This document shows positions 1,979-32,528 of a stretch of DNA of 33,798 bases, piece after piece. The DNA is taken from the NCBI GenBank assembly GCA_009783145.1, contig WRHR01000011.1, positions 1 to 33,798 on the forward strand, given 5' to 3'. The DNA is from Alphaproteobacteria bacterium. Lineage in GTDB: Bacteria > Pseudomonadota > Alphaproteobacteria > Rs-D84. Under the pieces are notes generated by a model. It ran no database searches, had not been told where the DNA came from, and worked only from the letters and a program-made list of their open reading frames with translations. The stretch's first letter is position 1. Each line of letters starts with the position of its first letter. Position numbers and translations under genes: made by a program.

Positions 1979-3055
1979 TCACATAAAATTCTGGGGATTC
2001 ACATCGATTTTCACGCGAATGTTCGCAGGCTGCTTTACTTTGCCCAGCCAGTGTTTGACCGCGGGCTGCAGCGCTGCGCGCTGATCCCCCGTAACCAAAA
2101 ACCGCATCCGGTACCAAGTCCTGACTTTATAAATCTGCGCCGGAATCGGCCCCAGGATTTTTGAGTTCTCTATTTTCGGCGCGGCGCGCGTCAATTCCGC
2201 GCAATACTTTTGCAAAACATTTTCTTTTTCCGCCTCTACTATGACCGCGATTAATTGACCATAGGGGGGCATTCTTGCCGCGCGGCGACCAAGCATATCT
2301 TGCGCCAGAAAAGCGTCGCGATCCCCTGCGACTATTGCGCGCAGGACCGGATGCTCGGGCTGATAAGTCTGCAGCAGCACGCGTCCCGGCGCGGTCCCGC
2401 GCCCCGCGCGCCCCGCGACCTGGAACAATTGCTGGAAAGTTTTTTCGCCCGCGCGAAAGTCCGCGCCGAACAAGCCCATATCAGCGTCGATCACGCCGAC
2501 CAATGTCAGATTAGGAAAATGATGCCCCTTGGCCAGAATCTGCGTGCCGATGACGATATCGATTTCGCCGGACTCCATCTGCGCGACCAAACGCTCCAAC
2601 GCTTGGCGCGACATCATCGTGTCGGATGATACCAAGGCGGTGTTTGCCTCCGGAAACTTTGCGGCAACTTCTTCCTGTATTTTCTCCAGGCCCGCGCCAA
2701 GCGTGGAAATTTCCGCCGCGCCGCAATCCGGGCAAGCCCGCGGCATCGGCATTGATTTGCCGCATATACGGCAAATCAGGTAGGAGGTAGGAGGTAGGAG
2801 GTAGGAGGTTTGAGGTTGAATGTTGTTATCTTTACCTCCAACCTCCAACCTCCAACCTCCTACCTGTTTATGTAAAGTCATGCCGCAGCTGCAGTCGGGG
2901 CAATCGGCGTGCCAGCCGCAAGCCTTGCATTGCACGATGGGCGCATACCCTCGGCGGTTGATGAACAGCATGACTTGCCGCCCCGCGTTCAGAGTTTCCG
3001 AAATCGCCGCGCAAAGGGCAGGGGAAAGATTGCCAGGATTTTTCTTTTCTTCCAT
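1979..3055 (-). CDS. priA: PriA primosomal helicase, C-terminal fragment of a split gene
   Basis: This is the C-terminal half of the replication-restart helicase PriA, about 358 residues from ATG at 3055. It starts at the conserved NLSPAL region and keeps the FINRRGYAP motif. Both zinc sites are present (CKAC, CPDC, CRIC, CPDC), as are the second RecA-like domain with VIGTQILAKGHHFPNL, the QVAGRAGRG motif and the C-terminal domain. A TTG at 3151 would extend it, but only through the antisense of a promoter for the gene inserted in priA. A heptamer hairpin is translated in frame between the zinc-binding pairs. The fragment is in the same phase as the N-terminal piece at 3488-4681. Whether it is translated separately is unknown, because no clear ribosome site precedes 3055. 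Confidence 0.8.
   Translation of the reverse strand: MEEKKNPGNLSPALCAAISETLNAGRQVMLFINRRGYAPIVQCKACGWHADCPDCSCGMTLHKQVGGWRLEVGGKDNNIQPQTSYLLPPTSYLICRICGKSMPMPRACPDCGAAEISTLGAGLEKIQEEVAAKFPEANTALVSSDTMMSRQALERLVAQMESGEIDIVIGTQILAKGHHFPNLTLVGVIDADMGLFGADFRAGEKTFQQLFQVAGRAGRGTAPGRVLLQTYQPEHPVLRAIVAGDRDAFLAQDMLGRRAARMPPYGQLIAVIVEAEKENVLQKYCAELTRAAPKIENSKILGPIPAQIYKVRTWYRMRFLVTGDQRAALQPAVKHWLGKVKQPANIRVKIDVNPQNFM
2778..2866. repeat. Paired 7-base tandem repeat (GGTAGGA type) inside priA
   Basis: Five tandem GGTAGGA-type units (2778-2810) are followed by a degenerate unit and a short loop, then by complementary ACCTCCA/ACCTCCT units (2834-2866), so the locus can form a long hairpin. It is translated on the minus strand as VGGWRLEVGGK, a linker, then TSYLLPPTSYL, in frame between PriA zinc-binding cysteine pairs. 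The coding-strand arm uses GGTTGGA variants that turn would-be TAG codons into TTG. Confidence 0.95.
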
Positions 3056-6199: not shown

Positions 6200-6316
6200 A
6201 CTGGATTGCCGCGCCCTGGCGGGCTCGCAATGACAATAAAGAGCAAAACGAAGTACCAAACTTAAAACAAACACCAAATTGTCATTGCGAGAAGCGAAGC
6301 GACGAAGCAATCCAGT
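6200..6316. repeat. CATTGCGAG element, copy 1 (117 bp)
   Basis: It is an imperfect palindrome bounded by ACTGGATTGC and GCAATCCAGT, with inner CGCAATGACA/TGTCATTGCG. The centre matches copies at 9203-9314 and 10437-10551 (AATTTGGTGTTTGTTT), but in the opposite orientation. It is non-autonomous and has no gene. It fills most of the 6120-6327 gap next to the stop of miaA. Confidence 0.9.
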
Positions 6317-9202: not shown

Positions 9203-9314
9203 ACTGGATTGCTTCGCTTCGCTCGCAATGACAATTTGGTGTTTGTTTCAAGCCTATGTGCTTCAAACAAACTCTCCCTTGTCATTGCGAGCCCGCAGGG
9301 CGCGGCAATCCAGT
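9203..9314. repeat. CATTGCGAG element, copy 2 (112 bp)
   Basis: Bounded by ACTGGATTGC and GCAATCCAGT, with CAATGACAATTTGG in the left inner arm and TTGTCATTGCGAG in the right. It lies in the same orientation as copy 3, and the two bracket gap. Confidence 0.9.
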
Positions 9315-9380
9315 AAAAAATTGGCGAAGCCGGGCGATTTTTTCTTGGGAAAAATAGCCTGTGAGTTTTTGTGCGGTCTG

Positions 9381-10424: not shown

Positions 10425-10436
10425 TGTATTTTTTTG

Positions 10437-10551
10437 CTGGATTGCCGCGCCCTTCGGGCTCGCAATGACAAATCGGTATTTGTTTTAGGTTATATGCTTT
10501 AAGCAAACTATCCATTGTCATTGCGAGGAGTGTAACGACGAAGCAATCCAG
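10437..10551. repeat. CATTGCGAG element, copy 3 (115 bp)
   Basis: Bounded by CTGGATTGC and GCAATCCAG, with inner CGCAATGACA and TTGTCATTGCG. The centre keeps the GGTATTTGTTTTAGG core of the family. It is directly downstream of gap. Confidence 0.9.
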
Positions 10552-10560
10552 GTAATAATA

Positions 10561-13164: not shown

Positions 13165-13310
13165 AGGTAGGAAGTAGGAGGTAGGAGGTAGGAGGTAGGA
13201 GGTAATTGTCCACTATAAATGACAATATATTTTATGTTTATCATTCTAATGTACTAAGAATGATAAAGATAATTTATCACTTCCTACTTCCTACCTCCTA
13301 CTTCCTACTT
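13165..13310. repeat. Paired 7-base tandem repeat (GGTAGGA type) between ftsH and the hydrolase gene
   Basis: Arm 1 (13165-13204) has about five GGTAGGA/GAAGTAG units. Arm 2 (13280-13310) is the complement. The 75-base middle holds two smaller palindromes, TGTCCACTATAAATGACA and one with CATTCTA and TAGAATG-like halves. Arm 2 encodes the last residues GSRR and the TAG stop of ftsH. Confidence 0.93.
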
Positions 13311-15180
13311 TTTTCTTCCCCAGCACGATTTCTTCAATCTCTTCGCGCGTGAGTGTTTCGCGCTTCAGCAATTCGTCGGCCAGCCGCTTGACGACCCTGC
13401 GCCCGCGAGACAATATTTTCGACGCGTCGTCGTGAGCGGCGTTCATCCAAGATTTTACTTCCGCGTCGACCGCTTCGGCCGTTTTCTCGGACGCGTTCTC
13501 CAATGCCGCGCGCATTCCGAAAGCCATCACTTGGTTGATCGCCGGCAACCCGATTTTCCGCGACAATCCCGCGACCGTAATCGCATAGCGCGTCAGCCTT
13601 GTCGCGGCCGCGATGTCGCCTTCGGCGCCAGTCGTGATTTTATCCGCGCCGAAAAATATTTCTTCGGCCGCGCGCCCCGCCATCAGTATCGCCAGTTTTG
13701 CTCGGACTTCCGCGACCGTCAGCGAAACCTTGTCGTCGATCGGCAAGTGCTGTACCATGCCCAAAGACCTGCCGCGCGGGATGATCGTCGCCTTGTGTAT
13801 CGGATCCGTAAGGTCCCGGTAATGCACGCTGACAAAGGCGTGCCCAGCTTCGTGATATGCGGTGAGGCGTATGTCCTCGGCGCGCATCTTGCGGTTTTTC
13901 CGCGGCCCCATCAGTGTTTTGTCGCGCGCTTCTTCAAGGTCTTCCTTTGCGATTTCTTTGCGATTCGCGCCGGCCGCATGCAGCGCCGCTTCGTTCAAAA
14001 GGTTTTCCAAGTCCGCGCCGGAAAAGCCGGTCGTGCCGCGCGCGATGTCCTGCAGGTTCACAGCTTTAGCGATTTTCATTTTTTTTGCGTAAAGGTTCAG
14101 AATTTCGCGGCGCCCGGCCAGATCGGGCAGCTCGATATAAACCTGCCGGTCAAAGCGCCCGGGGCGCAGCAGAGCGGTATCCAGCATATCCGGCCGGTTC
14201 GTCGCGCCGATTACTATAATCCCGTTGTCGTTCTGAAACCCGTCCATTTCTATCAGCAATTGGTTCAGGGTCTGCTCGCGGTCCTGGTCGTTGAAGCTGT
14301 GTTGGCTGCGGCGCTGGCCGATCGCGTCGATTTCGTCTATGAACAGGATGCAGGGCGCATTGCGCTTCGCCATTTCGAAGATTTCTTTGATTTTCGCAAC
14401 CCCCAGCCCGACGATAATCCCGGAAAAGTCGCTGCCGGATGTGGCGAAGAACGGCACGTTCGCCTCGCCCGCGATCGCGCGGGCGAGTAAGGTTTTGCCC
14501 GTGCCGGGCTCACCCGAAAGCAATATTCCGCGCGGCACGCGCGCGCCCAAGTCCTGGAATTTTTTCGGATTTTTCAGGAAGTCCACAATCTCCATCACTT
14601 CCTTTTTTTCCGATTCGATTCCGGCGACGTCGGCGAAAGTAGTCTTGGTTTTTCCGGTCGTGATTTTAGTCGGATTGTATTGCGAAATGCGCCCCAAGCC
14701 GCCTGCGCCCGCACCGCGGATTCCGCGGAATATCCACCAGATGAACAGGATTCCCATCAAAATCGGAACCCAAGTGCCCAAGTGATCCGTCCAGGATTTG
14801 GAGTTATCGATCTTCACAGCCGCGCCGCTGGCGGCGATTTTGCTCAGCAGTTCCGGGTCGTACGCGATGGTGGCCTTGTACTTGGCGCCGTCCGACAGCG
14901 TGCCGGTCGCGGTGTTGCCCTGAATTTCCATGGTGGATATCTGCTTGTTTTCCGTTGCATCCAGGATGCCTGAGAAAGAAAGTTCGACCACCGGGGCGCC
15001 CGCCTCGGCGCTTTGCGGATTGTCCGCCCTTTGATAGAATGCGCGGCCGACGATGAACGCCAGCATAATCAGGAAGACGATAAGATAGCCCAGCGATCCG
15101 TCGCGCCGCTTTTTCGTTACGGCCTCCTTCGTCTGCTCGATCGATTTATCAATTTTTTCTTTTATTTTTTGCTTCTGCAT
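13291..15180 (-). CDS. ftsH: ATP-dependent zinc metalloprotease FtsH
   Basis: FtsH is a membrane-bound AAA+ protease that degrades misfolded membrane proteins and regulators. The product has 629 residues, a normal length. A first membrane segment is at about 31-46 (GYLIVFLIMLAFIVG) and a second at about 120-136, enclosing a periplasmic domain. Walker A GEPGTGKT is at 223-230, Walker B FIDEID follows, then the SRH region. The zinc site HEAGH is at 443-447, with a downstream GAEGDIAAA segment. Its start overlaps the end of tilS by 32 bases, the usual tilS-ftsH order. The last four residues and the stop are built from heptamer repeat. Confidence 0.97.
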   Translation of the reverse strand: MQKQKIKEKIDKSIEQTKEAVTKKRRDGSLGYLIVFLIMLAFIVGRAFYQRADNPQSAEAGAPVVELSFSGILDATENKQISTMEIQGNTATGTLSDGAKYKATIAYDPELLSKIAASGAAVKIDNSKSWTDHLGTWVPILMGILFIWWIFRGIRGAGAGGLGRISQYNPTKITTGKTKTTFADVAGIESEKKEVMEIVDFLKNPKKFQDLGARVPRGILLSGEPGTGKTLLARAIAGEANVPFFATSGSDFSGIIVGLGVAKIKEIFEMAKRNAPCILFIDEIDAIGQRRSQHSFNDQDREQTLNQLLIEMDGFQNDNGIIVIGATNRPDMLDTALLRPGRFDRQVYIELPDLAGRREILNLYAKKMKIAKAVNLQDIARGTTGFSGADLENLLNEAALHAAGANRKEIAKEDLEEARDKTLMGPRKNRKMRAEDIRLTAYHEAGHAFVSVHYRDLTDPIHKATIIPRGRSLGMVQHLPIDDKVSLTVAEVRAKLAILMAGRAAEEIFFGADKITTGAEGDIAAATRLTRYAITVAGLSRKIGLPAINQVMAFGMRAALENASEKTAEAVDAEVKSWMNAAHDDASKILSRGRRVVKRLADELLKRETLTREEIEEIVLGKKKVGSRR

Positions 15181-18578: not shown

Positions 18579-19540
18579 AAAAATTTATAGTTGCTCTTTT
18601 CTGCTACGGATTCGTTTTTTCGAACTGCGCCATCGCGGCGACTTATACGATTGATAAAAGACAGTATGTTGATTGGTCCGCACCGGAGTTTCAGAAAATT
18701 GTAAAAATAGAACTTTTGGCCAGAAGTTGTACTGGGCAATATGTGTCGCCAAATATTATCCTGACTGCCGCGCATTGTTTATATTATTATAGCGCACAAC
18801 CTTCACGTTTCTTGGAAGTGCGTAATTATAAAGGCGATGTTTTTCCTATCAGAGTAATTATGGCTTATAATGATTTTGAAGGCATGGGCAGAAAGCAGGA
18901 GGATAATGACTGGGCTTTGTTACTTGTAGAGGACCCGGCTTATTATGCTAGAAATTATTTTAATATCGCCCGGCAAGGCAGAATCGGCGCTGTTCAACAA
19001 GTCGGGTTCGGGGCTCTCAGGATATTATCAGATGAAGAAATTCACAAAATAAGAAAGAAGCTTCTTGAGCGCGTGAAGCTAAGTAAAAACGAACGCAATT
19101 TATTAAAATCCGGCGAGCCTGAAAAGGAACAGATTGTTATTAACGATTATCGTGCCCTCAATAATAGACAATGGGAGCGTTTTTTAAATGAATTAGACAA
19201 TGCAAATAAGCCAGAATCAGAGGGCGGATTAGGGATACCAGAATTGTTTAATAATGATAGAGATTTGAAAAGTAATGCAAGTTGCTCTATTGTAAGCGCT
19301 GACGGTTTCATCGCAACACATACTTGTATGACCTATGGCGGAGATTCAGGAAGCGCGCTTTGGGCAGGTCAAAATGAACTCCTCGGGGTGGCTGTAAAAT
19401 CAAATCCCCGAACCTCAGCGTTAATTGGCGGCGAATTCGGGCATGGTCAAGATAGTGTGGCAATAGATTCCAAACAATTTTACAACGCATTGCAACAAGC
19501 CATACAAAAATATCCTGTGAAGAATAATAATGAACAATGA
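18575..19540 (+). CDS. Secreted trypsin-like serine protease 2
   Basis: The protein has 321 residues and is a paralogue of the upstream protease. The signal peptide runs to about residue 22 (NCAIAA). The triad is H67 in LTAAHC, D112 in DNDWALLLV and S258 in YGGDSGSALW. C52 and C68 flank the histidine. It has the same helical insertion, starting RILSDEEIHKIRKKLLERV (about 149 onward). The Ser loop reads GDSGS rather than GNSGG, so the two enzymes have diverged. It overlaps xerC by 11 bases. Confidence 0.9.
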   Translation: MKKFIVALFCYGFVFSNCAIAATYTIDKRQYVDWSAPEFQKIVKIELLARSCTGQYVSPNIILTAAHCLYYYSAQPSRFLEVRNYKGDVFPIRVIMAYNDFEGMGRKQEDNDWALLLVEDPAYYARNYFNIARQGRIGAVQQVGFGALRILSDEEIHKIRKKLLERVKLSKNERNLLKSGEPEKEQIVINDYRALNNRQWERFLNELDNANKPESEGGLGIPELFNNDRDLKSNASCSIVSADGFIATHTCMTYGGDSGSALWAGQNELLGVAVKSNPRTSALIGGEFGHGQDSVAIDSKQFYNALQQAIQKYPVKNNNEQ

Positions 19541-20501
19541 ACTGGATTCTTTTGCGAATTATCTGCTGAATACGAAAAAGTATTCTGTTCATACGGCCGA
19601 TGCTTATCGCACCGACATTACGGATTTTATTAAATTTTACGGCGGCTATCGCGGCAATGCATGCCTGCGCGAAGATTTAGCGCGCGTGGATACCCTGGGT
19701 TTCCGCGCGTGGCTGGCGGATCGCGCGAGGCGCGGGCTTTCCGCGAAATCCACCGCGCGCGCGTTGTCGTCCCTGCGCGGATTCTACAAATTTTTGGGCG
19801 CGGAATATGGAATAAAAAACACCGCTATCGGGTTAATCTCCTCGCCGAAAATTCCGCGCAAACTTTCCAAAGCTATAGAGCCGGACGCAATCGAAGACAT
19901 GTCGGATATAATACGCGAGATGGATAACGAGCCATGGGTTGCCGCGCGCGATTGGGCCTTGGTCGTTTTGATTTTCGGATGCGGACTGCGAATTTCCGAA
20001 GCGCTGTCATTAACTTTGCGCGACGTGGCGGGGCGCCCGGAAGTATTGCGAATCCTGGGCAAAGGGTCTAAGGAGCGCCTGGTTCCCGTTCTGCCCGCGG
20101 TATATGACGCGATTGAAAAATATCTCGGGCTGCGCCCGAAAGTAGGAGGTATGAGGTATGAGGTAGGAGGTAAAGAATACGACGCCCTAACCTCCTACTT
20201 TCTACCTCCTACCTCCTACCTTTTTATCAGCATTCGCGGCCTTCCCATGACGGCGCGCATGGCGCAAAAGCAGGTTGAAAAAATCCGCCATTTGTTGCAG
20301 CTGCCTGATTACGTCACGCCTCATGCGCTGCGCCACTCATTTGCAACGGCAATGCTGGGCGGCGGCGTGGATCTGCGAAGCCTGCAGGAGTTGCTGGGGC
20401 ATTCGTCTCTCTCCACCACGCAGCTTTATACTAAAATAGATATGTCACAAATCGCGGCGGCTTATAACAAGGCGCACCCGCGCGCGAAAAAACCGAAATA
20501 A
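19530..20501 (+). CDS. xerC: Tyrosine site-specific recombinase (XerC/XerD type)
   Basis: Xer recombinases resolve chromosome dimers at dif. The product has 323 residues. The N-terminal core-binding SAM-like domain covers 1-100. The catalytic set is R154 (CGLRISEAL), K178 (GKGSKERLVP), H265 and R268 (HALRHSFAT), H291 (LGHSSLSTTQ) and Y300. All are present, so it should be active. A paired heptamer repeat is translated in frame at residues 204-231, just before the conserved LFISIRG strand. XerC rather than XerD is a guess from overall look. It is the last gene of the LOG/protease operon. Confidence 0.9.
   Translation: MNNELDSFANYLLNTKKYSVHTADAYRTDITDFIKFYGGYRGNACLREDLARVDTLGFRAWLADRARRGLSAKSTARALSSLRGFYKFLGAEYGIKNTAIGLISSPKIPRKLSKAIEPDAIEDMSDIIREMDNEPWVAARDWALVVLIFGCGLRISEALSLTLRDVAGRPEVLRILGKGSKERLVPVLPAVYDAIEKYLGLRPKVGGMRYEVGGKEYDALTSYFLPPTSYLFISIRGLPMTARMAQKQVEKIRHLLQLPDYVTPHALRHSFATAMLGGGVDLRSLQELLGHSSLSTTQLYTKIDMSQIAAAYNKAHPRAKKPK
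20141..20222. repeat. Paired 7-base tandem repeat (GGTAGGA type) inside xerC
   Basis: Arm 1 has GGTAGGA/GGTATGA units and arm 2 their complements, with a short loop around AAAGAATACGACGCC. It is read as VGGMRYEVGGK, a short linker, then TSYFLPPTSYL, nearly the same peptide as in priA. GGTATGA units replace the register that would give TAG. Confidence 0.95.
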
Positions 20502-21561: not shown

Positions 21562-21570
21562 GGGACTTTT

Positions 21571-21733
21571 CGTGAATCGTGAATCGTAAATCATGAATCG
21601 TAAGTCGAGGGTCTTTTATAATCTTTGCCATTCTAGTATACTAGAATGGCAAAGATAAAACACGATCGATTCACAAACTTACGATTCATGATTTACGATT
21701 TACGATTTACGATTTACGATTTACGATTTACGA
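21571..21733. repeat. Paired 7-base tandem repeat (GTGAATC/GATTTAC type) with a perfect 36-bp central palindrome
   Basis: Arm 1 (21571-21609) has GTGAATC/GTAAATC/ATGAATC units. Arm 2 (21664-21733) has about nine complementary ACGATTT units. The centre, 21621-21656, is a perfect 36-base palindrome with ATCTTTGCCATTCTAGTA as its left half. It occupies most of the gap between the divergent genes at 21513 and 21773. Confidence 0.95.
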
Positions 21734-21772
21734 AGTTTTGATTAAAATTCCATTTTATGATAAAATTAAATT

Positions 21773-29942: not shown

Positions 29943-30015
29943 ATTAATTAGCAATTATCAATTAGCAATTAGCGATTACACTCCCTGATAATTGCTAATC
30001 GCTAATTGATAATTA
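29943..30015. repeat. Paired 7-base tandem repeat (TTAGCAA type) before polA
   Basis: Arm 1 (29943-29980) has TTAGCAA, TTATCAA, TTAGCAA, TTAGCGA. Arm 2 (29986-30015) is its near-exact complement, and the loop is only about five bases. It fills the whole gap between the beta-barrel gene stop and the polA start. Confidence 0.95.
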
Positions 30016-30601: not shown

Positions 30602-31372
30602 ATGCAAGAGAATAAACCTATTTCAGACAACGTAAAGGAAATATCGCACGATTTGTGCGAGGGAAAATCATCCGATGCGAGGAAATCCGGCGCAGATGTA
30701 TATAATACATCAAGCCGGATTGACAAAGCAGCGGGGGATTTAACCCGCACGGCTTCGCCGCGGCGTCAATTTGAATCAATAACTTCGGATTCCCGCTCGC
30801 CCGTGTGCTCACACGGGCTTCGCGAAAATCCTCGTTCTTGCTCCAAATTACCTGCCGCAAATCGCGCGATATTTCCTTCACGTTGTCTGATTATTGGCCT
30901 GGGCAATCCCGGCACTGCGTATTCGCAAACGCGGCATAACGTCGGGTTTATGGCGCTGGATGCGCTGGCCGGACCGGATGCGGTTTGGAAGAAAGAGAAG
31001 AACGCGCTGGTGGCGAAACAAGGGAATATTATATTCGCAAAGCCCCAGACTTTTATGAACTTGTCCGGAGTGTCGGTGCAGGCTTTGATGACTTTTTATA
31101 AAGTCCCGCTTGAAAATTTAGTGGTGATTCATGACGATATGGATTTGAAGCTGGGCGACGCGCGCGAAAAAACCGGAGGCAGCAGCGCGGGCCACAACGG
31201 AATCAAAAGCATCGACGCCGCGATCGGAAACGAATACCATCGTATAAGGATAGGGGTAGGGCGGGTCAGCAGAACCGAAATGGACCCGTCGGATTGGGTT
31301 CTGGGGAGATTCTCGGCTGAAGAGTTGAAGAAGATAAAGGAAGTACTTGAAAAAATAGTAGCTAGTCGTTAG
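30602..31372 (+). CDS. pth: Peptidyl-tRNA hydrolase with element-encoded N-terminal extension
   Basis: Pth frees tRNA from stalled peptidyl-tRNA and is essential. The product has 256 residues from ATG at 30602. The true enzyme starts at LIIGLGNPGTAY (residue 96). It keeps the catalytic histidine (TRHNVGF), asparagine residues (FMNLSGV, GGSSAGHNGIKS) and aspartate (IHDDMDL). Residues about 8-96 are encoded wholly by a 266-bp palindromic element, whose right end supplies the first residues of the enzyme. Normal Pth is about 190 residues. A start inside the element (GTG at about 30804, or non-AUG) cannot be excluded. The C-terminal VASR and the stop come from a heptamer repeat. Confidence 0.9.
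   Translation: MQENKPISDNVKEISHDLCEGKSSDARKSGADVYNTSSRIDKAAGDLTRTASPRRQFESITSDSRSPVCSHGLRENPRSCSKLPAANRAIFPSRCLIIGLGNPGTAYSQTRHNVGFMALDALAGPDAVWKKEKNALVAKQGNIIFAKPQTFMNLSGVSVQALMTFYKVPLENLVVIHDDMDLKLGDAREKTGGSSAGHNGIKSIDAAIGNEYHRIRIGVGRVSRTEMDPSDWVLGRFSAEELKKIKEVLEKIVASR
30624..30889. repeat. 266-bp palindromic element in the 5' part of pth
   Basis: The inverted ends match over about 32 bases with two mismatches: CAGACAACGTAAAGG at the left and CAGACAACGTGAAGG read from the right. Internal hairpins include CGGCTTCGCCGCG and CGTGTGCTCACACG, plus GATGTATATAATACATC. The frame stays open through the element. One copy is seen in the window. Confidence 0.92.
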
Positions 31373-31473
31373 TCGCTAGCAATTCGGCGCAACAAATAGC
31401 ATTGTCCATTATAATGGACATTGTTCATATCGGCACATACCTACTAGCGACTAGCTACTAACGACTAGCGACT
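31356..31473. repeat. Paired 7-base tandem repeat (TAGTCGC type) after pth
   Basis: Arm 1 (31356-31381) encodes the pth C terminus and its TAG stop. Arm 2 (31439-31473) is complementary. The middle holds the perfect 18-base palindrome TGTCCATTATAATGGACA at 31403-31420, similar to one in the 13165-13310 locus. Confidence 0.93.
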
Positions 31474-31526
31474 TTTTCCACTTTTAACTTTTTGTAATTT
31501 ATGTTAAAATCTATAGATAGAGAGAA

Positions 31527-32393
31527 ATGAAGAAATTTGCCATTTGCTATTTGCTATTTGCTATTTGCGCCGGCGCGGCCGGTGCTGCCGCGACTTGCTC
31601 GAAGCAATCTCTCAACGCTTGCATCGATTCATCGTGCGCGATAAACATCGGCGCTAATCCGGCCGCCAGATGCCAGCTATGCGGCACGGCGACCGCAGGC
31701 GACGCGCCAACCGGCACAGGAATGCAACAACTGGCCCTCGGCGCATCAAGCAAGAATACTTTGTCGGAAAGAGAGCTGCGGGCCGCGCCGCGCGATCCGG
31801 CGGACAGATATGCCTGGACAGTTGCCCAATGCATTAAGAAAATCGGCGGCGCCTGCACTCTGGACGATGTCGAGGATTACGACAAACTTATAGAGCAATC
31901 ATGCCGCGCGGCGGGCCTGGATATGCAATTCGCAAGCGCGCAGAAAAAAGCGACGACCCAAAAGACAAGGTCCGCATGCGAATCCGAAATAAGCCTGTGC
32001 ATACGCGGCGATAAAAGATGCGGCTCCGGCTTTACCGCTTGCAAAGAGGACGCCGACTTCGACAAGTTCTTTGCGGCCTGCGCGGTGGAGGCCACGGGCT
32101 GCGACCAGTTCACGAAAGACATCCGTACGGCAAGCATATCCGCGCGCGACAACAGCATAAAGAATGCAAGCGGGCTGCTGGCCAGCATAGTCGCGGGATA
32201 CAGGACCGCGCGCGAAGACAGGCTTAACGCGGCGAAAGAAGGCTGCAAAAGCAACGCTTCGCGCGACGCATGCGTTCAGATGGTGTGCGCTGAAAATATG
32301 AGGAACAAATGCGCGAGCGGCTTCGAATCCGAAGTATCGATGGCGAACTTGCTGTGCAAGTTTCATGAGACTGCCTGCGGCCGTCTCAAGTAA
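31527..32393 (+). CDS. Secreted cysteine-module protein
   Basis: The protein has 288 residues. The signal peptide MKKFAICYLLFAICAGAAGA is mostly encoded by TTTGCTA heptamers. The mature part begins with a CSKQSLNACIDSSC unit. At residues 151-172 it has the four-cysteine module CESEISLC, KRC, GSGFTAC. A third cysteine region (CAVEATGC, CKSNASRDACVQMVC) is near the end, with charged helices between. It is homologous in module to the proteins at 24712-27117 and 32440-33798 and lies directly before the latter. A weak ribosome site (GAGAG) is present. Function unknown; probably a disulfide-bonded periplasmic or surface protein. Confidence 0.8.
   Translation: MKKFAICYLLFAICAGAAGAAATCSKQSLNACIDSSCAINIGANPAARCQLCGTATAGDAPTGTGMQQLALGASSKNTLSERELRAAPRDPADRYAWTVAQCIKKIGGACTLDDVEDYDKLIEQSCRAAGLDMQFASAQKKATTQKTRSACESEISLCIRGDKRCGSGFTACKEDADFDKFFAACAVEATGCDQFTKDIRTASISARDNSIKNASGLLASIVAGYRTAREDRLNAAKEGCKSNASRDACVQMVCAENMRNKCASGFESEVSMANLLCKFHETACGRLK
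31536..31569. repeat. 7-base tandem repeat (TTTGCTA type) forming a signal peptide
   Basis: TTTGCCA, three TTTGCTA units and TTTGCGC encode FAICYLLFAICA, the hydrophobic core of the signal peptide. It is single-armed. Confidence 0.94.
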
Positions 32394-32528
32394 AGAATAA
32401 AGAATAATGAATAAAGAGAAAATAATCTTTGTTGATAATATGAATACCGGCAGGACTGATGTTCACGCTGCGTCATCTATTCGCCATTCTTTATTCTTTA
32501 TTCTTTATTCTTTGTTCTTTATTCTTTG
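32391..32528. repeat. Paired 7-base tandem repeat (TTTATTC type) enclosing a gene start
   Basis: Arm 1 (32391-32417) begins with the TAA stop of the upstream gene and carries AAAGAAT/AATAATG-type units. Arm 2 (32486-32528) has about six TTTATTC units and encodes the signal-peptide core SLFFILYSLFFILC of the next gene. The ATG at 32440 lies in the loop. Confidence 0.94.

Follow-up and report, generated by a model that had tools for sequence, protein, structure and literature searches.

Heptamer-armed hairpins in an alphaproteobacterial genome as probable non-coding relatives of S23 gene units

What is a perfect palindrome doing between two complementary arrays of tandem heptamers? The question is raised by a locus at 21571-21733 of the window, by which we mean the whole 33,798-nt stretch of DNA analysed, contig 11 of the 947-kb genome (24 contigs) of an Alphaproteobacteria bacterium of the Rs-D84 lineage. 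The original prediction saw in this and two other loci a plan of arm, palindromic core and complementary arm, and proposed either a transposable unit or a structured protein-binding or replication site. Here we present a comparison of such units within the genome, with a sister species and with further genomes, most of them drafts; gene family names are profile matches unless marked as assigned by eye. The reading that we favor, with a probability of about 0.62, is that the units of the window are non-coding members of a family of S23-type armed hairpin insertion elements lying outside rRNA.

Direct reading of the sequence bore out the predicted parts. At the center of the main locus is a perfect 36-base palindrome (21621-21656, halves ATCTTTGCCATTCTAGTA and TACTAGAATGGCAAAGAT) with complementary heptamer arrays on both sides, and within 31356-31473 there is a perfect 18-base palindrome (31403-31420) with TAGTCGC-type arrays around it. 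The two weaker palindromes claimed for the locus at 13165-13310 are also there, both imperfect, at about 13206-13225 and 13240-13266 between GTAGGAG-type arrays. Half-sites are common to the cores as claimed, and define core A, TTCTAGTATACTAGAA, and core B, TGTCCATTATAATGGACA. No S23 ORF was found between the arms of any window unit, and Rfam at gathering thresholds gave zero matches within the window. The features are as follows:

21570..21605, + strand: left arm, tandem heptamers TCGTGAA/TCGTAAA
21621..21656, no strand: core A, perfect 36-base palindrome
21677..21733, + strand: right arm, TTACGAT array, reverse complement of the arm at 21570..21605
21563..21753, no strand: entire block of 191 nt; the orthologous site in the sister species G001 has 6 nt instead
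13165..13208, + strand: left arm, GTAGGAG-type heptamers
13206..13225, no strand: imperfect core B (TTGTCCACTATAAATGACAA)
13240..13266, no strand: imperfect core A (TATCATTCTAATGTACTAAGAATGATA)
13277..13312, + strand: right arm, reverse complement of the arm at 13165..13208
31353..31379, + strand: left arm, TAGTCGC-type heptamers
31403..31420, no strand: core B, perfect 18-base palindrome
31443..31477, + strand: right arm, reverse complement of the arm at 31353..31379
2774..2868, no strand: core-less heptamer hairpin of GTAGGAG type with a short loop, missing from the sister genome
20138..20224, no strand: core-less heptamer hairpin, in frame within the XerC-like recombinase ORF 19530-20501
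29945..30014, no strand: core-less heptamer hairpin of AATTAGC type
32388..32528, no strand: heptamer arm pair TAAAGAA/ATTCTTT, about 60 nt between the arms, with neither an A nor a B core

The word "structured" in the original prediction proved apt: as a single strand, 21570-21719 is predicted to fold at -81.5 kcal/mol (z -16.4), and two other units reach z scores of -11.7 and -13.6. Two further repeats of the window were noted in passing. One ORF begins with an ATTTGCT heptamer array (31527-31571), which codes for its hydrophobic N-terminus (MKKFAICYLLFAICAGA, read from the DNA), and a TCATTGCGAG...GCAATCCAG repeat is present in inverted copies at 6261-6291, 9222-9320 and 10430-10557.

Exact copies of core A number 12 across the genome, and 46 copies of core B were counted at no more than three mismatches; the same patterns written backwards, as a control, gave 0 in both cases. 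These 58 cores make up 52 units, 36 of which lie between inverted arms at a score of at least 12, compared with 11 of 583 random positions. Counted from the unit rows, arms accompany 33 of 40 units with B only, 2 of 5 with both cores and 1 of 7 with A only, so that the expectation of cores always lying between heptamer arms is true of B and false of A. Four of the seven armless B-only units are cores of one gene-bearing array, the outer ends of which do have arms.

Between its arms, the core B unit is conserved, asymmetrically, for about 30 bases on each side of the center. Among 33 distinct sequences, two inner pairs show two-sided changes from A-T to T-A, in 6 and in 5 sequences, and 2 of 500 shuffles reached the covariation score; pair counts and type counts for the same 33 sequences were no higher than in shuffles. 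Core B may be a protein-binding site. Its use as a replication site found no support, the 46 copies being dispersed and the sister genome having no B. Beyond its own lineage, core B matched 56 stretches, several of which probably reflect chance or coincidence in coding sequence, as in three Bacteroidota within a dnaA-like gene (named by eye), and such matches were set aside. On six Patescibacteria/MAG contigs (L104, L112, L118, L126, L150 and L152), a core TTGTCCTTTATAAAGGACAA was seen by eye near TGTGGATA-like words with an extra TGTCCTTTA half-site, and at L148 (2923) a core B pair is flanked by inverted copies of the TCATTGCGAG repeat rather than by heptamers.

Core B might also serve single-gene cassettes, as an integron-like or pdif-like site of recombination or as an operator, the armed single cores being empty attachment sites. 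The locus L090 (8484-9874, G000 contig 15) would suit this; it reads arm, B, HTH gene, B, chorismate mutase, B, AAA-like gene, B, arm, with ATGACTA-type arms. The same HTH gene is B-flanked in two other genera (G008 and G012), as is a methyltransferase in G002, and B gives a promoter-like spacing upstream of cassette genes (by eye). However, most armed pairs have no B, the A-only and S23 units have arms without B, and in other genomes the cassettes are mostly armless. Nor was an integron integrase identified: PF00589 has three matching proteins, of which the window's is XerC-like and the two others were left unclassified. We regard this account of the units as unlikely. XerCD dif and pdif sites have an 11-6-11 layout, and core B was rejected as such a site because it is, by eye, a 20-base palindrome lacking that layout. 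Core B separates single-gene cassettes at L089, L090, L091, L094 and L095 (HTH antitoxin-like, chorismate mutase, Nmad3, short-chain dehydrogenase and methyltransferase genes); these B-flanked stretches look cassette-like, and they lie outside the reach of the S23 model.

The arms tell a more uniform story. At one threshold, the window holds 17 arrays of period 7 and none of periods 4-6, 8-13 or 15 (14 being a multiple of 7). The heptamer itself varies by locus (ATTAGCA, CGAAACG, TAGTCGC, GTAGGAG, TCGTAAA, ATGACTA, ATTAACA and others), and GTGCAG hexamers occur too. In a 194-kb sample of the genome (the window and eight 20-kb stretches), 21 inverted array pairs were found less than 320 nt apart; the pair at 31356-31473 is not among them, its left arm falling below the threshold, and the unpaired arrays include one run of N and one GC-rich row, which were dropped or are weak. 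A recognized core is present in 4 of these 21 pairs, the others having a short loop or another interior. The predicted plan thus stands as regards its complementary arms, which are the constant part of the unit, and not as regards its palindromic core, which is optional and does not define the unit. Complementarity is kept mostly at the level of the heptamer family, since arms pair strictly best with their own partners in only 7 of 36 units; strict pairing of own arms was for this reason dropped as a proof of inverted duplication.

The original prediction had suggested looking for empty sites in relatives. G001, a syntenic sister species of the same genus, was compared through a 400-kb sample. 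At one threshold it has 5 period-7 arrays in 400 kb versus 52 in 190 kb of the genome studied here; arrays of period 9 in G001 number 8 at a looser threshold and 1 at a stricter one. Flank pairs were found in the sample for 14 of the 36 core units, the other 22 having none, and at 13 of the 14 comparable sites the whole block of arms and core is missing, one site (L041) being unclear and none having the arrays. At the main locus, 191 nt correspond to 6 nt. Of 17 core-less hairpins, 6 could be compared, with 3 absent and 3 unclear. Since whole units are absent from 13 and present at none of the 14 sister sites, the armed units are probably insertions, in support of the transposable unit of the original prediction. 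For the hairpin in the XerC-like ORF the direction is indicated by the protein: the G001 orthologue is 79% identical and has no counterpart of the roughly 20 residues at the hairpin, which makes the hairpin the derived state there. At the other sites, gain is the simpler reading of the comparison between the two genomes. No target-site duplication was consistent across sites; a TA duplication is possible at L004. We also observed a small gene between two different armed B units (L059, 804-1601, G000 contig 16), where gene and both units together correspond to 8 nt in G001.

The same comparison bears on whether the units are intergenic RNA hairpins kept by selection as terminators or mRNA stabilizers. 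Very stable folds fit this idea, several units adjoin intrinsic terminators (by eye), and B units lie between convergent genes in 15 of 35 classified cases as against 31 of 151 adjacent gene pairs. Yet a close relative has no units at most comparable sites, one hairpin lies within coding sequence, and there is the link to S23 genes described below; we judge such an origin very improbable.

Two arm pairs in the sample of the genome, about 360 and 410 nt apart, enclose genes, and these match PF05635 (23S rRNA intervening-sequence protein) and TIGR02436 ("four helix bundle protein"). The genome has 6 such S23 copies, the sister G001 0 and 14 control genomes 0. All six lie between inverted arms, one with a period of 8; four of these six units are comparable with G001, where two are absent and two unclear. 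Among relatives, 19 of 60 genomes carry S23, with 70 matches in all; of the 34 loci examined, 32 have arms at a score of at least 12 and 30 at a score of at least 14, compared with 6 and 2 of 393 random intervals. S23 is also present in 10 of 21 distant genomes reached through unrelated core-pattern matches, with arms in 20 of 25 rows; among the 25, L223 and L227 are two parts of a single gene, and L231 matches only partially, with a score under the cut-off of the family. On plasmids of Bacillota, Bacteroidota, Spirochaetota, Cyanobacteriota and Chloroflexota, all 11 loci examined (of 26 records) are armed, one just at the threshold. Arms at a score of at least 12 were missing from L184 and L202 in relatives, from L218, L222, L227, L231 and L234 in distant genomes and from the one phage locus examined of 2 records (L257). 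Altogether, the S23 loci examined number 71 and come from several phyla; inverted arms enclose 63 of them, with a median arm length of 29 nt and a median span of 446 nt, and period 7 is present in 43 of these 63 versus 2 of 500 random pairs. No earlier description of S23 between heptamer arms was found in the literature searched, which included few subscription papers.

Other small ORFs are seldom placed in this way, with 3 of 38 between arms in the genome (one S23, two GIY-YIG) and 2 of 90 in G001. The GIY-YIG nuclease genes (PF01541; L063, 17880-18640, and L064, 16850-17650) lie between long inverted arms of other repeats (TCATTGCGAG..., CACTCCTGCGTAGGCAGGAGTG) and are analogous armed gene units without heptamers. 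Judging by annotations, S23 units on plasmids (L246, L250-L253, L255) are often found among restriction, helicase, methylase or CRISPR genes.

Are the coding and the non-coding units kin? Within the genome, the longest word shared by an S23 arm with non-coding sequence is 16-32 nt, compared with 10-20 nt for the S23 arms of 26 loci elsewhere. One S23 locus (L180) and a core-less hairpin in L066 have a 30-nt arm in common, and another S23 locus (L176) has a 24-nt arm word in common with a B unit (L044). Across 22 genomes, represented by small samples and uncorrected for phylogeny, the density of period-7 arrays rises with the number of S23 genes (Spearman 0.71, p 2e-4; Mann-Whitney p 0.003); in the small samples of these 22 genomes, inverted array pairs were seen in S23 carriers only. 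The six S23 copies of the genome are 14-61% identical to each other, and all but one are closer to a match elsewhere, so that no recent copying of S23 units is visible within the genome.

Arms of this kind could also arise where they stand, as local products of replication. Quasipalindrome correction and slippage are known processes: slippage at hairpins would expand the heptamers, template switching at imperfect palindromes would make the arms complementary, and nothing would move. Such an origin would agree with complementarity that is largely at family level and with the general frequency of heptameric repeats in bacteria described in PMC4692102. Against this, the sister lacks entire units at corresponding sites, and stretches of about 24-32 identical arm bases turn up at unlinked loci with different interiors between them. 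A constant cargo family, S23, is enclosed by arms across phyla, and one hairpin sits in frame within XerC. We consider local replication quite unlikely.

The favored reading, in which the window units belong to the S23 family of insertion elements, can be put as follows. A unit consists of a 5' arm of about four to five tandem copies of a locus-specific heptamer, an interior and a reverse-complement arm. Some interiors are short loops, others have a palindromic core (B, A or both), and others again contain an S23 four-helix-bundle gene. It would insert as a whole, mostly between genes and sometimes in frame inside one. The relation would be that of transposons to MITEs, with self-sufficient members coding for S23 and non-autonomous derivatives in the form of hairpins with or without a core. 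Recognition would act on the long stem, either in RNA or in extruded DNA, and this would account for arm sequences that vary freely while complementarity and period are kept. We infer that S23 protein, by binding the stem, may support the hairpin units in trans.

Several known systems share parts of this anatomy. As described in PMC4990558, intervening sequences (IVSs) are stem-loops inserted into rRNA genes and cut by RNase III, and some of them contain an S23 ORF; in the Coxiella 23S IVS, two to three tandem heptamers adjoin the S23 ORF, and mobility of IVSs is one hypothesis among several. The present units resemble them as inserted stem-loops with complementary arms and an interior that is either an S23 ORF or non-coding. 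However, IVSs belong by definition to rRNA genes, and RNase III excises them, whereas the present units number in the dozens and lie in or between protein genes; the genome's own 23S gene (2,893 nt versus a 2,925-position model) has no insertion of IVS size. Having the complementary stem arms and not the location in a 23S or 16S rRNA gene that defines IVSs, the units are called S23-type hairpin elements here. Like MITEs and REP/REPIN sequences, they are short, non-coding, intergenic and multicopy with inverted arms; unlike these, their arms vary by locus, the genome has no Y1/RAYT and no target duplication has been established. As MITEs do, they have inverted repeats in common with a coding relative, which is S23 and not a transposase. 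Rickettsia palindromic elements are likewise palindromic insertions in frame in a protein gene, but the arms here are tandem heptamers of changing sequence. Cyanobacterial STRR sequences are also tandem heptamers, mostly intergenic, as are the TAACTGA arrays of Beggiatoaceae (PMC4679880). Unlike the present arms, they are described as direct repeats of one main word, and no link to S23 was found in the passages of PMC4679880 consulted. On cyanobacterial plasmids, S23 genes do have inverted heptamer arms on both sides.

The predicted structure of S23 (pLDDT 97) matches the S23 structure 2rld (Z 21.1), 2gsc (Z 16.2) and, with the same fold, Avd of the ribonucleoprotein of diversity-generating retroelements (Z 14.3, unrelated helix bundles reaching 13). 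Six polar residues are near-invariant (Q36, R39, S43, N47, E50 and E73), and we know of no enzymatic activity of S23. No retroelement was demonstrated in the genome, and a reverse transcriptase is not present in all S23 carriers: it was found in 11 of 19 S23-bearing genomes (one weak) versus 14 of 41 without S23, some genomes being incomplete. Because the sister has one in spite of lacking S23, and several S23 carriers have none, the enzyme was rejected as a general partner. The reverse transcriptase gene of the genome (L182, 1297-2313, G000 C1:39501), for which the best NCBIfam models score far below cut-off, is one that the sister has too. A Y1/RAYT transposase was also rejected as the mover, PF01797 having 0 matches in the genome and matches in 5 of 14 control genomes.

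A wider proposal, which we offer tentatively as one possibility, is that bacteria have a general class of mobile hairpins, the S23 elements, mostly outside rRNA, of which the rRNA IVSs and many heptameric tandem repeats are footprints. The S23 protein, which forms a homopentamer and has the Avd fold, would attach to the stem, perhaps with one heptamer per subunit, and would copy or place the hairpin, possibly as RNA. Copying at the RNA level is suggested by the S23 genes lying in the sense direction of their neighbors: 46 of 53 are co-directional with both, compared with a baseline of 183 of 440.

The mobility of IVSs and the role of S23 have been open since IVSs were first described, and strain comparisons can now serve as a test. 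Genomes rich in coding and non-coding armed units, beside a sister species without them, make the question of mobility testable. Furthermore, the link between S23 and heptamers offers an origin for the heptamer arrays known from several bacterial groups.
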